A stretch of 64,000 nt of DNA, from contig OX485808.1 of assembly GCA_950295325.1 (NCBI GenBank), positions 20,480,527-20,544,526 of the forward strand, given 5' to 3'. The translations under genes and the position numbers were made by a program. The notes beneath the pieces were generated by a model. It saw nothing but the letters and a program-made list of their open reading frames with translations. It did no database searches and had not been told where the DNA came from. This DNA comes from Polytrichum commune (lineage: Eukaryota > Streptophyta > Polytrichopsida > Polytrichales > Polytrichaceae). Within the stretch, counting starts at the first letter, position 1; the number at the start of each line of letters is the position of its first letter. Shown in pieces: positions 18,900 through 26,100 of the stretch.

Positions 18900-19060
18900 T
18901 AGAGATGTACACCTTATTAGGTTTGTACATTGCTGAATATGAAACACATTTGGACGAGGTCGATGGGGATTCTCCGTGCCTATTTGACACAATGGTTGCC
19001 ATTCTTCTTTATGTTGATGATATTGTTCTACTCTCTAGATCAGTCCCAAGCCTAGAAAGA
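18900..19060 (+). pseudogene. AT-tailed LINE, copy 1, reverse transcriptase part
   Basis: Encodes the palm of a non-LTR reverse transcriptase: LLGLYIAEYE, then SPCLF and the catalytic block LLYVDDIVLLS (YVDD where YADD or FADD is usual). The frame is cut at SLERK by the insertion of the minus-strand element 19061-21687 and resumes at 21688. The 5' end of the LINE is missing. Confidence 0.75.
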
Positions 19061-21687
19061 AAAGAAAAAATAACGCCCGTATTTTCACACGAGCATGACT
19101 GCAAGCCCGTTGGCCTCATACTAATCACAGATTCCGTGATGTAGTATGTGGTTATATGCCTCCGTTAGGAGGTGGGCTCTGGGGGTTCTCTAGAAGTCCA
19201 ATTTTGGTTAAGGTGGGGGTACGGGTGGTTGTTTATTGTCGAGTTTTCTTTTATTAAGTACTAAGTACGTGAGGTTTTTAATAGCGTTTTGGTGTATATC
19301 TTTCATGAATTTTTTGATGTTGGATTTAGGGATTTTTAAGTCCGTTAGTTTTTGGATGGAGTGTTCGTGTATGGCTCCTCGTACTCCTACAGTGATTGTT
19401 ATAACAGGGTTGGTTTTCCAACCCTTGTTGTGGATGGCGTGATTTAGTGGATCGTATTTGGCGTGTTTCTGTGCAATGGCTTGTTCGGGGAATCTGTCGT
19501 GGCAGTAAGTGAATTCGATAAATTGTACTGTGTGGTTGGATGATGGTAATACAGGTAGGGTGGTGTGATTTGGGGCACCGATCATGCATAAGATGTCAGG
19601 TCTAAGTTTAGCTTGACATTGGCATGGCGTTTGGGGACATGTGCATGCTAATAACCATTCTGGGACTGTGGTTTCTTGTGGCCTGTTGTTGAGATGTCCG
19701 GCATTGGCTTTTGTGAGGAACCGTGTGTGTTTGTTAGCTTGTAGTGTTTGTGTGATCAGATGTACTGCTTTGTTATGTCTTGCGATTCGGAGACCTTTTA
19801 AGTATGGGTGTTCGCATGTTGATAGTAGGTGCGGCCACGTGTCTCTCTCATTTCTGTGGCAAAGTGTGCAGTTGGGTTTTGGATGTGTGAGGGGCCAAAA
19901 TATACTTTTTCTATGGTTGCCCATATATTGAGCGTATCGAAATTTTAATGTTTGGGTGATTTGGGTATCTGGTATTTGATCATTATTCCAAAAGTGATTA
20001 GAGAGTTTTTGGTTTATTTGGGTGTTTGAGAGCCATTTATCTACGTATGGGAATTTATTTATGGCTAAGGTTGTTTCTAAGTTGTCGTGTGCTTTTGTTA
20101 TGAATGTGCGTAAGTTACGGATGGCTCCGTCGTGTGTGCCTGTGGGGCAGCTGGCAAGCCAGTAGGGGGTGGGGCGGGCGATGTGGATGTGTGGAGTTTG
20201 TTCTGGTTTTTCTAAGTTGTTCCCTTCATTGGCTAGGTCATCGGCTAGTTCATTTCCGGTGATGCCCGTATGCGCTCGGACTTTATGTATGTAGATTTTG
20301 TGGGGGGTCCAGTAAATCTTCCTTACTATGGCGGCTATAAGTAGTTTGTCAGGGTGGTGGTGTTGTGATGTTGGGTGTTGTATGTGGTTATTTATGAGGT
20401 ATATGCTGTTGAGGCTGTCGGTAAATATGTGTGTTTCTGTTTGTGTGATTTTTATGTTTTTGATGGCGAGGAGTATGGCATATAGTTCGGCTCTAAGTAT
20501 ATTTTGATAGCCTGGTAGTCGTTTTTCTATACGGGTGTTATTATTGGGGCTATATCCCGATCCTGCCGTATTGCCCACAATTTGTTCCTCGGAGTATTTT
20601 GTTGGGGGGATGAAGGAGCCGTCTGTGTATACGCATTGATGTGGGGGGAATTTTGGGGGGGGGGTGGGTGTATGTATAAGTATTAGGTATTGGTATGGTG
20701 GTGTGATTATTAGTGTGTAGTATATTTACTTGGGGGTATTTTTCCATATATTGGAGAGTTTAACTTTATACTGTGTGAGAATGGGCTTAATGGGGTGGGT
20801 GTCTATATGTGTGTTAGTTAGTTGTTGCAAGATTTGTTTTAATGTGTGCGGGGTTCGGACGTTTGGACTTAATGTTACTTGGTTGTGTACACAAATGATT
20901 GATGTGAGTGCCGGTTCGTCGTATTGGTAGTATGTTGGCCATTCGGGTGTAGGTTTATATTTTATGGTGTATGGTGGTATGGTTGCCATGACGTGTACGT
21001 CGGGTTTTGTGGCGAGTGGGAGGTTTTGTGTTGTCCAATCTTTATGGTTGGCGATGAGAATGGTAACTGTTTTGGGGTCTTCCTTGGCGGCCATTCTGGC
21101 CCAGTGGATGGCTTCTAACGTTGTGTTGTAGTCCGTGGGGAAAGCTAGTCCTATTCCTGTCCATTTAGAGGATTTGGCGTGACCTAGTGAGCTGAATATT
21201 ATGTCTCGGTTATGTGGGGAGTGGTATTGTGTTATTTGAATGGGGCAAGTGAGGGGGGATGAATAGTAAGTGTGTGTGATTTGGAATGTTGTGATTAGTG
21301 TTTTGATGATTTCGGGGTGGAGTGTTTGATGTAGGTTTTGTGGTTGAATTATCTTTGGTTTTTTCTTGGGAAGTATAGTGACATATTTTTGTAGGAGCCA
21401 TAGTACTGCGGTTTCAAAGTCTTGGGGTGGTGGGTGAAGGAAGTTAGTTAAATGTTGTTGTTTATTATGTGTGAATTGGCTCCAAAGCCATTGTAGTCTA
21501 TCTATATTAATGGTGGCGATGTGGTTTCCATTTTGGTCATATACGTTGGCTACTAAGGTATTTATTTGGATAGTTGGTTTATTGACTAGGATGTCTTTGT
21601 CCGGATTACATTCCTGGGTGGAGGTTGTAAGGTTGGTGATTTTTAGTGGTGGTTGGATGAATTTCTTATCCTTAGTTTGGACATGTG
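19061..21687 (-). pseudogene. Non-LTR retrotransposon with RNase H, CCHC finger and restriction-like endonuclease
   Basis: One minus-strand frame is open from the 5' truncation near 21685 to the stop at 19208, broken only by TAA at 20726-20728. In order: about 300 residues I cannot assign (TCPIQITQYHSPHNRDIIFS, WTGIGLAFPTD); RNase HI with YTDGS (D codon 20621-20623), AELYA, IFTDSLNS, VRAHTG and GNELADDLAN, i.e. the full DEDD set; a CCHC finger C-x2-C-x9-H-x4-C at about 19870-19811; then a PD-(D/E)XK nuclease with RPD, 27 residues later FIEFTY, then QKHAKYDPL. RNase H before a C-terminal restriction-like endonuclease is characteristic of Dualen/RandI-type elements. The reverse transcriptase is lost by truncation. 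The 3' UTR runs 19207-19061. It lies inside an older LINE, with imperfect 12-bp flanking repeats (AGCCTAGAAAGA, GACTTACAAAGA). Confidence 0.7.
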
Positions 21688-22599
21688 AGACTTACAAAGA
21701 CTTCAAACAAGCTATATGAGTTTTGCACTTCGTCTGGCCTTGAAACCGATCTAGCGAAGACTAAAATCATGATATTTGGCCGCAACAAAAGGAAAGTAAA
21801 CCAAGAGGCATTTTACCCACATAAGGACCAAATTGAGATCACCTCTGAATACAAATACCTTGGGATTGATTTTTATTCACATGTTTACTTTGAGCCACCT
21901 AGCAAAAGGTGAGGAATCGTACGTATGAAAGTGTTTGGTGGGAACTTTAAGAAAAGAAGTTGTAGTGAGTGTCACATGTTGGGAACTTTAAGGAAAGAAG
22001 TGGTAGTTAGCGTTACATGTTGGGAACTCAAATTTTACCTATTCAAGGCTTTAGTGCTTCCTACTTGCACGTATGCACCAAAATTTGGGGAGGCGGCTTG
22101 AAAAACTCTCATTGGAAAGTCTTTGAGAAGGGCATGAAGATGCATATGATGTCATGTGTCAAAGTATATTCATCAAGTACTTATAATATCTTATTGGCCG
22201 AATTCATAGAACTTCCCATAGATTGTATGCTCGCAAGCTTACTATGGGCTTTGAACAACATCTCGCCCACCTACCCCCCTCTTGGCTAGTCAATAAAGCA
22301 ACCTCACTATCCCAACCTAGCCGAACAAGGATTTAACACTTGGTACAAATGGACAACCATGTGGAAGACATCATGGGGTTTATCTCATTGGGAAACTCAA
22401 GACAACCCAACCATATAAAAGACAACATATGTTGATATCAAGGAGGTTTTTCTTGCTAGAGAGTGGAACTCTTTCCATCTCTCTCCAAAGAAACTAGATT
22501 ACCTCCATGTGGTGCTAACTTTTTTGGTTATGTTAGCCTCCAGGGGTTTGTACTGGGTGGCCAATATTTTGTAACATCTTGATATATATATATATATAT
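21688..22599 (+). pseudogene. AT-tailed LINE, copy 1, 3' part
   Basis: Continues the reverse transcriptase interrupted at 19060: YEFCTSSGLE, AKTKIMIFGRNKRK, YKYLGIDFY, then the thumb/connection region (ALVLPTCTYAPKIWGG, SHWKVFEKGMKMHMM, ILLAEF). Several frameshifts and stops. Compared with copy 2 the zinc-finger region is deleted after KKLDY. It ends in an (AT)n run at 22582-22599, not in poly(A). Confidence 0.75.
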
Positions 22600-23162: not shown

Positions 23163-26100
23163 TTTATAAAAATATATTAAAAAAAAAAAAAAAAACAGAA
23201 GGCCAAACCAACCAGCGCCAAAATGAATACCACAAAAGAAAAGACGCGCCCTTCACCGAGGGGAGGCGGAACCCCTTGGGCGCGAAACACCGCCACTTAA
23301 AAGAAACAAGGACCGACCGCAATCAAGGACAACCCACCAGGGCCACCGAGCCAAGGACCACCCCCACCCCACCAACCAAAGACAACCCCCAAGCCACCTA
23401 AAACGCCAACAAAGAGGCCGTGACAACCTACCTACGTTGCCTTTTCCAGTTCCACTCAATATGCAGGTTGTGTCTTCTACAAAGAACATTCCTAGCCCCC
23501 CATGTTTTGTCAAACTTTTGAAGCATTGCAACTGCAAAGAAGCTACTAATCTTAATCATTGCCAACACTCTTCGCCATGCCAATTTGGCATAGATGACGA
23601 GTTCATCCCAAATCTGGTGCTTGAGCTTAGACTCATGCCATTGTGTTTGATTGAAGACTTTGTCATTCCTTTCGATCTAGATAGTCCAAAGAGTAATGCC
23701 CCTGAGGAGGTGCCAAACTTTGATCATTTTACCATATCTCTTTGGGATTCTTTCCCCGAACAAGGCTTGCTTCCAATTGAAGCCATCATAGTTGTTAGAT
23801 CTAACACCACGGAGTTTTGCATAATGAAGGTGGCCCATCTCCACGCCCTCCTAGCTTGAATGCAATCCCAAAATTTATGCTTGATTGATTCGCTCGTATT
23901 AGGGAGGCAAAAAATGCATTGCTTAGAGATTGAGGTTGGTGCGATCCTGGCCCTCCATTCATTGACTGCAACCGCTTTATGCCAAATTGACCAGATGAAC
24001 ACAACTTCTTTACTGGCTCTAAGTGGGTCCCATATTTGCGACCAGTAAAATATGTAATTACTCGGGAGGTAACCTTGCCATTTATCTATTGCACAGGTGA
24101 TTCCCGGGTTTCTCTTGATGATAGGGTCACGGCCATCCTTGGTGGTGTAGTCAAGGAACCGTCCCCCGTCCATCCATCGCCACCTATCCGGGTCCCATCC
24201 AAGGGATGCCAATTTCCTCTCTTTTCCCTTCCCTTTTAGGTCCCCTATTGGTGTGAATGACTTTTACTTTATGAAAGAAGCCTTCTATCTCCCCTAGAGG
24301 ATGTTCCCAAACTCTAAGGCAACGTGAGTGTGTACCCACCATGTAGCATTGCACCGGGAGAGGTAACGTTGTATCGTACCACTGCAGACATTCGGGAGTG
24401 AAGTTCGTATCACATTGGAAGACAAATGCCGGGTCTTCTTCTCCAACAACATAATACCCCAGCCATTGACCGGCATAGGCAATGTCTTCATCCGTTTCCA
24501 AGAGTTGACGCCATTGGTCATAGATTTTATTAATCAAATCCTCCCAGCCTCCAAGCTCGGTGTTGGTGAACCTAAACTTCTCACGCGCTCTTTCCCATGA
24601 GAGAAAATCTTGTGGTGTACTATCCCAAATGTTATCAATTTGCCTATTTCTTTGGCGGTAGAGGTGGAGGCCTTTAGGGTAGGCAAATTCTTTGTTAAGT
24701 AGGTCCACTCCATCCGACCACCAAATATTTGAGTGCAAGAGTTCCATCCGTGTGCGTGGCGGAACTTGATACACCCCTTTAACCATGACCTTCCATACTT
24801 TGCTAATGTGACCCCATACTTTTGATCCTGTGAAGCCAATGTGTTATTTATTGGTGAACCAATCAAGGCTAACTCCCCATTTTTTCCCCTTTTGGGGGTT
24901 GAATCTTACTAGCCTATATCTTAGCATAAGTTGAAGAGTAGACTCTCCTGGTTCCATAGCTCTAACAATCCATTTGCACATAAGTCTAGTCTTAGCCGCT
25001 TCCGGGTCTACCAACCCGAGTCCTCCCTCTTTCTTCTTCATGCAACACTCTTGCCAGCTCACCCTGGTGCGGGTAAGTTGTTCTTTTCCAGACCACTAAT
25101 AGTTATGAATGGCCCCTCTAATGTTCCTAAGAATTTTGTTTGACCTTCCCCACACCGTAATGAAGAACCATAGTGTGGATAGGAGAACTTGATTGCATAT
25201 GACCACCCTACTTGCAAGAGAGAGTTTCATGGTGCTCCAGTATTTCAGTCTCTTAGAAATTTTATTAAATAAAAAGTCATCAACACCCTCCGTGTGTAGG
25301 TTAAGGCCGAAGGGAATCCCGAGTAATTTGGAGAGGTCCCCTTTTTCCACCCATTGCTAATTATACCCTGCTAGCCACTCCAGCTTGTGCGTATCAAACC
25401 AATAGGCGCAAGACTTTTCCCAATTGATTTCCATTCTTGATAGATTACTGAATACCTTAAGCAACCGCACTAATTCGACTGCATATCGCTTTTCTCCTCT
25501 AACCATGAAGGAGGAATCGTCCGCATATTGTGAGATGCTCTATTGTTTTCTTCCCTATGGGAGGGAAATTCTCTTTAGTCTCCCTTCGGTGATTGCTTTC
25601 TTAATCATGTGTATGAGTGTTTCTCCAACTATAAGGAATAGATATGGTGCCAAAGGGCACCCTTGTCTAACTCCTTTTCTATCTTGAAGCTCTCACCCGG
25701 GGTGCCATTGAGGTTAACAACTGCGGATGCATTGCCAAAGAGTAGTTTAACCCATCTAGTGAATTTTGGACCTATGCCTATGTTTTCTATAGCATGGAAA
25801 AGAAACCGCCAAGAGACTTTGTCATATGCTTTAGAGAAATCTAATTTCACGAAAACTGTTGGTTATCTAGACGACTTTGCCCAATGTAGAGATTCATGTG
25901 TCAAGACAATGTTGTCTAAAATGAAGCGGAGGGGTAGAAATGCAGTTTGCTATGGGCTGATGATGTTTCTAAGTATGGGTTGCAGTCTTAGTTGTAAGGT
26001 TTTGACAAATATTTTATATGATGTTGTAAGTAAGATGATAGGCCGCTAGTAGTTAAGGTCTTTTGGGTCACCTTCTTTAGGGATGAGGCTAATAAGCCCT

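Follow-up and report, generated by a model that had tools for sequence, protein, structure and literature searches.

The window, a 64,000-nucleotide stretch of DNA from Polytrichum commune, carries what is very probably a dead, 5'-truncated copy of an abundant land-plant non-LTR retrotransposon of a Dualen/RandI-like kind, this being the best explanation of the element as a whole. Fuller copies in the same genome display an ORF2 with the order APE, reverse transcriptase (RT), chromodomain-like segment, PCIF1-like domain, RNase H, CCHC, and restriction-like endonuclease (RLE), of which the chromodomain-like segment, with a strand-strand-strand-helix arrangement after the RT, is suggested only by modeling.

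A truncated copy nested in an older LINE

The window copy retains the 3' UTR and the C-terminal part of ORF2, and it interrupts an older LINE within the RT region. Its boundaries were judged by alignment to two uninterrupted relatives of this host LINE (L078 and L079). The features are:

18923..19060, plus strand: older LINE hosting the insertion, left part (RT region)
19051..19060, no strand: probable target-site duplication, left copy CCTAGAAAGA, from comparison with the uninterrupted relatives
19061..21690, minus strand: 5'-truncated copy of the Dualen/RandI-like non-LTR retrotransposon (3' UTR and C-terminal part of ORF2), 2,630 bp
19061..19072, minus strand: T-rich 3' tail, (TTTTC)n in sister copies
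19073..19179, minus strand: structured 3' UTR RNA, with 4 helices and 35 pairs in the family alignment
19208..21691, minus strand: ORF2 fragment, 828 codons including one internal TAA (20726-20728) and the final stop
19211..19780, minus strand: predicted RLE, from motifs and a fold search
19451-19471, minus strand: RLE motif KHAKY
19502-19525, minus strand: RLE motif IEFTY
19589-19606, minus strand: RLE motif RPD
19763-19780, minus strand: RLE motif RHNKAV
19814..19870, minus strand: CCHC zinc finger of the RLE module, C-x2-C-x9-H-x4-C
20222..20635, minus strand: RNase H domain (Pfam PF00075, E 3.7e-16)
21131-21151, minus strand: GLAFPTD, where PCIF1 has NPPF
21170..21430, minus strand: PCIF1/CAPAM-like core (PF12237; 27.4 bits, E 2.9e-6, against a cut-off of 31.1)
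21691..21700, no strand: probable target-site duplication, right copy CTTACAAAGA, from comparison with the uninterrupted relatives
21691..22100, plus strand: older LINE hosting the insertion, right part

The flanking 10-mers CCTAGAAAGA and CTTACAAAGA agree at 8 of 10 positions, with two mismatches, and this 8-10 bp repeat is probably a target-site duplication. An earlier note on this DNA had described a nearly unbroken frame with RNase H, CCHC, RPD, IEFTY, and KHAKY, all of which are present on the minus strand where it had placed them, as are the RNase H catalytic-acid motifs YTDGS, AELYA, FTDS, and NELADD. It had also called the copy young. A comparison of a 1,188-base query with the genome (40 copies scored of 486 candidates) recovered nine copies, the window included, at 94-100% identity, three at 84%, and 28 at 73-79%; the closest other copies among those scored are 96% identical to the window copy over the 1,188 bases. 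The description as young is only partly right: the copy is fairly recent, but it is 5'-truncated and non-autonomous. An Rfam search at the gathering threshold gave no match anywhere in the window.

The C-terminal zinc finger and predicted nuclease

Of 27 matching loci, 21 were aligned (A1), leaving out five that are broken or incomplete and L008, which nearly duplicates L010. All 21 have the four CCHC residues, IEFTY, and KHxKY without change, and 19 retain (R/K)PD; L004 has PG there and L011 has PN. A phmmer search with the CCHC-RLE segment against the PDB returned silkmoth R2 as its sole match (E 0.45), aligning RDTWPHLLSTC and RIARHNKAV of the element with RETTAHILQQC and RILRHNKIV of silkmoth R2; a profile of the 21 RLE copies searched against PDB sequences found no nuclease. 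The AlphaFold model of the CCHC-RLE region is of low confidence (mean pLDDT 41.6, about 50-68 in the nuclease core). In a Foldseek search with the RLE model, R2Tg ranked first (E 1.2e-3, prob 0.96) and again fifth (0.92), turtle R2 second (0.92), and silkmoth R2 33rd (0.57), with no match at E 0.001. Most of the other 46 matches listed are bunya- and arenavirus cap-snatching endonucleases, which share the PD-(D/E)XK fold. Given these R2 ranks and the motifs kept in the aligned copies, we take the C-terminal domain to be an RLE, as established at the level of the predicted fold only; its nuclease activity is inferred.

The family in the host genome

With the C-terminal protein as the query, 103 matches were scored of 7,458 candidates, the lowest at 74% identity, and none of the seven large contigs C1-C7 (about 406 Mb in total) is without copies, which rules out contamination. 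Two copies on different chromosomes are 98.6% identical across 11,892 aligned bases, from which we derive an element length of about 11.9 kb; the 5' truncation points vary among family copies. Across the fuller copies ORF2 spans 2,300-2,900 codons: stop-free frames extend over 2,422 codons in L007, 2,372 in L008, and 2,305 in L009, and a second subfamily (L059 and L060) has a single open frame of 2,924 codons, with an RT 52-61% identical to that of the first. L007 is nevertheless not intact, since it is without about 49 RT codons that L008 and L009 have (311 versus 360). Upstream of ORF2, an ORF1 frame of about 1,300 codons is found in two of three copies compared and is interrupted by a stop in the third. 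Low complexity in the N-terminal half, together with an A/C-rich coding strand, leaves the start of ORF1 uncertain, and the frame gave no Pfam match of substance and only chance-level PDB matches.

The domain architecture of L009 was recovered in one protein by Pfam: APE (PF03372 at 5e-7, PF14529 at 2.4e-7), RT (8.1e-32), PCIF1_WW (1.1e-5, below its cut-off), and RNase H (4e-15), with the C-terminal RLE in the same open frame as the APE and RT. L007 shows the same four domains in its ORF2. Because L004 is a broken copy, its APE and RT occupy separate stretches; PCIF1_WW and RNase H also appear in its pieces. In the first 2,300 codons of L059, Pfam detects the RT and PCIF1, the latter above cut-off at 41.8 bits; the APE models are absent there at E 0.01, and the region matching the first subfamily's APE is 46-48% identical to it. 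RNase H was found in L039, another locus of the L059 and L060 subfamily. The RNase H lies between the RT and the RLE, as in Dualen/RandI, and with the APE of the fuller copies the layout has two endonucleases, again as in Dualen/RandI.

Among L007, L008, and L009, dN/dS is 0.13-0.16 for the APE, 0.05-0.08 for RNase H, 0.06-0.11 for CCHC plus RLE, and 0.05 for the RT (computable for one of three pairs). Between subfamilies, against L059, it is 0.2-0.4 in most domains and 0.52-0.77 in the chromodomain-like segment. dS is near saturation throughout.

As for the host genome, its four LEAFY matches (PF01698) and about 14 NAC genes, the latter inferred from 28 exon matches, indicate a land plant or a near streptophyte relative. 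Two LEAFY paralogues read KMRHYVHCYALH and KMRDYVHCYALH; the D form of LEAFY is moss-like, and on these data a moss is likely.

A structured 3' UTR and a repeat tail

We collected 22 3' ends of family copies, 21 of which contain the shared segment, whole or in part; L006 is covered by 25 bases only. In 19 of the 22 the sequence extends to a T-rich, mostly (TTTTC)n tail followed by unrelated flanks, and in these 19 flanks no target specificity was seen by eye. The tail of L059 and L060 is (CTAT)n. RNAalifold predicts 35 pairs, 16 with double changes, on an alignment of 17 of the 22 ends (A4, without the incomplete L003, L004, and L006 and the near-copies L008 and L016). Over the 17 copies, 96.1% of the cells are paired, and there are 48 double-change cells against a shuffled mean of 13.0; values as high arose in 0 of 500 shuffles on four of five measures, the paired share and the count of pairs with double changes among them, and in 2 of 500 on the fifth, and sliding the partners gave at most six pairs with double changes. 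Two caveats apply: relatedness among the copies makes the shuffle result look stronger than it is, and the structure came from the very alignment on which it was scored.

We also considered a SINE partner sharing this 3' UTR. Among 40 scored of 325 3' UTR matches, five without a listed C-terminal match were read; they match the window copy over 175, 178, 382, 509, and 582 bases and are all 5'-truncated copies of the element, and on these five the candidate was rejected.

Placement of the reverse transcriptase

Searched against the PDB, the family RT matches turtle R2 (4.6e-36) and silkmoth R2 (3.3e-22) ahead of human L1 (3.1e-18), whereas a host L1 RT gives the opposite order (L1 3e-44, R2 1.7e-22). 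In a tree of 15 RTs, the four RTs of the dual-endonuclease family (dual RTs) group together with support of 100/100, the five host L1 RTs with 98/98, and the three R2 RTs with 98/97. Trees that place the dual RTs within one or the other host L1 lineage are rejected (p-AU 2.9e-6 and 4.3e-6). A sister relationship to L1 as a whole is not rejected (p-AU 0.178), and the best tree unites them, weakly (40/78), with R2. Their exact place is unresolved because of long branches and uneven composition, both of which were flagged, and no algal Dualen RT was included. In this tree the dual RTs form a branch of their own among non-LTR RTs.

These results bear on two simpler identities for the element. The first takes it for a normal plant L1 LINE that has RNase H and, at its C-terminus, a zinc-finger region merely resembling an RLE; this draws on the RNase H that plant L1 elements carry according to the accessible part of PMC4640811 and on the L1-like elements with zf-RVT present in the window itself. 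It is hard to reconcile with the rejected nesting in both host L1 lineages, with a C-terminus whose best fold match is the R2 RLE, and with the near-complete retention of its motifs (IEFTY and KHxKY invariant, (R/K)PD in 19 of 21 copies); we regard it as very improbable. The second holds that an RLE-only element of the R2/NeSL/HERO kind gained RNase H and never had an APE, as the absence of APE from the window copy and the proximity of the family RT to R2 among PDB sequences might intimate. However, L004, L007, and L009 carry an APE, whose dN/dS is 0.13-0.16; L009 has APE, RT, and RNase H in one frame with a C-terminus that aligns with the RLE copies; and the 3' flanks (19 of 22) betray no site-specific insertion. 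Hence this identity, too, has next to no likelihood in our estimation.

We thus retain the Dualen/RandI-like reading. The earlier note had proposed that order and had named an RT grouping with L1, or a C-terminus not matching the nuclease fold, as outcomes that would refute it. Neither was seen: both L1 nestings are rejected and the RT is nearer to R2 than to human L1, the best fold matches of the C-terminus are R2 RLEs (on a low-confidence model), and the fuller copies bear out the order itself with APE, RT, RNase H, CCHC, and RLE, albeit without an algal Dualen in the tree.

A PCIF1/CAPAM-like domain between RT and RNase H

The region between the RT and RNase H contains a domain related to PCIF1/CAPAM. 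Its PF12237 score falls just below the cut-off in the window's subfamily and exceeds it in related loci: in a genome search, 150 of 150 scored loci (of 697 candidates) were above the cut-off, with a best score of 55.6 bits. We read 21 of these loci individually; that all of them belong to elements is unchecked. Foldseek, run on an AlphaFold model of low confidence (mean pLDDT 46.7), gave four matches with E no higher than 0.001; these head its list, and all are PCIF1, from human and zebrafish (E 1.4e-6 to 7.6e-5, prob 1.00). When the two subfamilies were combined in one profile of 15 sequences (alignment A5, 15 of 18 rows, with L047 left out for a stop and L044 and L051 left out without a check), every PDB match up to E 1 was a PCIF1 chain (0.0013 for zebrafish, 0.096 for human); a profile of the window's (first) subfamily alone gave no PCIF1 match there. 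For alignment A2, 19 of 28 rows were used.

NPPF is the catalytic motif of PCIF1. The both-subfamily profile places it opposite the AFPT/AHPH stretch of the family, and it is absent from all 40 family sequences read (19 + 21), which have (A/G)(F/Y/H)P followed by T, M, P, H, or Y at this place. The dN/dS of the domain is 0.14-0.25 among L007, L008, and L009 and 0.23-0.35 against L059, values from which we infer that it is under purifying selection. An active adenosine methyltransferase marking the element's own RNA or cDNA could be envisaged from the match to PCIF1 in fold and sequence and from this apparent selection; with NPPF missing from 40 of 40 sequences, however, we consider such an activity improbable. 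Because the fold is kept while the catalytic motif is lost, we suggest a binding role instead: the domain has lost the catalytic motif and, by inference, probably binds RNA, for which the template's capped 5' end is one candidate site.

A StopGo/2A-like motif upstream of the APE

Scanning 11 loci, we found eight 2A-like sites in six of them, each behind a hydrophobic stretch and upstream of the APE; the other five have none within the stretch inspected. The forms are GDI(E/H/Q)xNPGP, GDVKPNPGP in L009, and GDIHPNSGP in L004, so that the 2A core D(V/I)ExNPGP, or a variant active elsewhere, is found in the family, its activity here being inferred. The motif shares the APE-RT frame in L007 and, at one of two sites, in L008; in L009 it is out of frame with them, and in L059 GDIKPNPGP lies within the long open frame. 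The route of translation to the motif in L007 is unresolved because the first in-frame ATG lies downstream of it.

Genome-wide, the DNA pattern for GDIxPNPGP has 178 matches and its reversed control none. At least 43 of 100 listed sites have a family PCIF1 or RLE match at the expected distance and strand, compared with none for the control with PCIF1 matches on the opposite strand. The listed sites include at least nine pairs 160-463 bases apart, at least seven of which are 461-463 apart, and these close pairs indicate that some elements bear the motif twice.

Whether the motif acts is less certain. Many copies have H, Q, or K rather than E at motif position 14, and the L009 motif is in a different frame from the APE-RT; both points speak for an absence of StopGo recoding. 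Against this, the canonical GDIEPNPGP is frequent among the genomic matches, the motif of L059 and L060 sits within a 2,924-codon open frame, and the accessible text of PMC12846837 gives the p14=H variant as >95% active in vitro and E14Q as 56% or 26% active; the K variant is not among the variants seen tested in that part of the paper. We therefore hold the absence of recoding to be unlikely, without being able to dismiss it, and proceed with a motif that may function.

Proposed mechanism

The domains and their order, selection, covariation in the RNA, truncation at the 5' end, and the probable target-site duplication are observations, and the biochemical steps that follow are all inferred. 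We propose, as the most likely course, that the RT would bind its own mRNA at the structured 3' UTR and start cDNA from the repeat tail at a low-specificity nick (target-primed reverse transcription), with RNase H removing the RNA. The RLE and APE would supply nicks on the two strands; which enzyme cuts which strand is unassigned. The 2A-like motif might let ribosomes release the N-terminal part from the APE-RT-RLE part, and the PCIF1-like domain might bind RNA, perhaps at the capped 5' end of the template. A bolder version, in which a captured PCIF1/CAPAM domain is now a non-catalytic cap binder, the protein holds both ends of the template RNA during insertion, the cap through this domain and the structured 3' UTR through the RT, and the element is a natural user of StopGo, is speculative and, taken whole, rather doubtful.

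Comparison with known systems

Dualen/RandI non-LTR retrotransposons were reportedly described by Kojima and Fujiwara in 2005. As far as the available parts of PMC4640811, PMC3636483, and PMC8226300 go, each such element carries both endonucleases, APE and RLE, alongside RT and RNase H, and so does the present family. Both end in short tandem repeats: (TTTTC)n and (CTAT)n in the family, and (ATT)n and (CTATTT)n in green-algal RandI, per a table in the accessible portion of PMC3747384. They differ in host, green algae as against a land plant: table 3 of the 2015 survey PMC4438587, as far as available, lists Dualen/RandI under protists, from green algae only, and the portion of PMC8226300 at hand places Dualen in Chlamydomonas relatives. 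The passages available on Dualen/RandI do not mention a PCIF1-like domain or 2A-like motif, both of which the family has. Within an open-licence and partly incomplete coverage of the literature, we found no report of Dualen/RandI from land plants and no paper linking PCIF1 with a LINE; the available text of PMC7466625 on Physcomitrium has two LINEs, without the words "endonuclease" or "RNase H". We accordingly file the family as a land-plant variant of the Dualen/RandI kind, its formal clade membership being untested; what is new is the host and, as far as the literature search goes, the PCIF1-like domain and the 2A-like motif.

R2-type elements (silkmoth, zebra finch, turtle) have the RLE fold, CCHC, and RHN motif in common with the family, and their RTs are the nearest to the family RT among PDB sequences. 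R2 inserts in rDNA and, to our knowledge, has neither APE nor RNase H, whereas both are present in the family, whose copies have differing flanks. Like the family, plant L1 LINEs have APE, RT, and RNase H, but they lack its additional RLE and PCIF1-like domain, and nesting of its RT in the host L1 lineages is rejected. The cap-specific adenosine methyltransferase PCIF1/CAPAM agrees with the family domain in fold and sequence, including SP-x-x-C and FGS-x-G; in the family, however, the domain lies inside a retrotransposon polyprotein and has NPPF in 0 of 40 sequences. In RNA viruses and in certain animal LINEs of the APE type, StopGo/2A sequences have the octapeptide D(V/I)ExNPGP or near variants behind an upstream hydrophobic stretch, as does the family, which is a plant mobile element; the 2026 survey PMC12846837, in the part available, reports no evidence of natural StopGo use by plant viruses.

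The accessible part of PMC4640811 treats Dualen as a sign that APE-type LINEs arose by RLE replacement. How two endonucleases divide the two DNA cuts between them could be studied in a second system, a land-plant lineage that is abundant and has long open frames. Among LINEs, the PCIF1-like domain would add a new kind of accessory module, and the 178 2A-pattern matches raise the possibility that a mobile element of plants uses StopGo naturally.

ORF1 and the doubled 2A-like motif of the Dualen/RandI-like family

The copies of this family in the host genome provide the following features:

L013:1978-5000 with L008:1-1383, and L014:2142-5500: ORF1, about 1,300 codons
L004:7061-7210: chromodomain-like segment (YLCQW...WRKEEDLL), between the RT and the PCIF1-like domain
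L010, 1883 and 2345 (reverse complement of the locus): 2A-like motif pair
L008, 1811 and 2247: 2A-like motif pair
Host genome, C1:44784505/44784967, plus six more genomic pairs: 2A-like motif pairs

The N-terminal half of ORF1 is of low complexity, and its C-terminal half is alike across copies, with no fold assigned. The segment in L004 is predicted by modeling to adopt a chromodomain-like fold. Some copies carry two 2A-like motifs per element, mostly spaced by 461-463 bases; in L008 the spacing is 436 and the frames differ.

Further observations

The host LEAFY paralogs L080 and L081 differ by H/D within KMR(H/D)YVHCYALH. Separately, an RTE-like LINE RT with stops occupies positions 401-1459 of locus L033, the Alicyclobacillus plasmid record NZ_CP104070.1, and is probably eukaryotic contamination of that assembly.

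Other LINE remains in the window

18923-19060 and 21691-22100: RT region (YVDDIVLLS) of an older LINE, split by the Dualen/RandI-like element
23724-24263 and 24184-25095, reverse strand: plant L1-type LINE remains, zf-RVT (PF13966, E 1.9e-6) and adjoining frames

For the interrupted LINE, the best 40 of 330 candidate genomic copies were scored. The frames next to the zf-RVT domain in 23724-25095 resemble, by visual inspection, host L1 copies such as L066.
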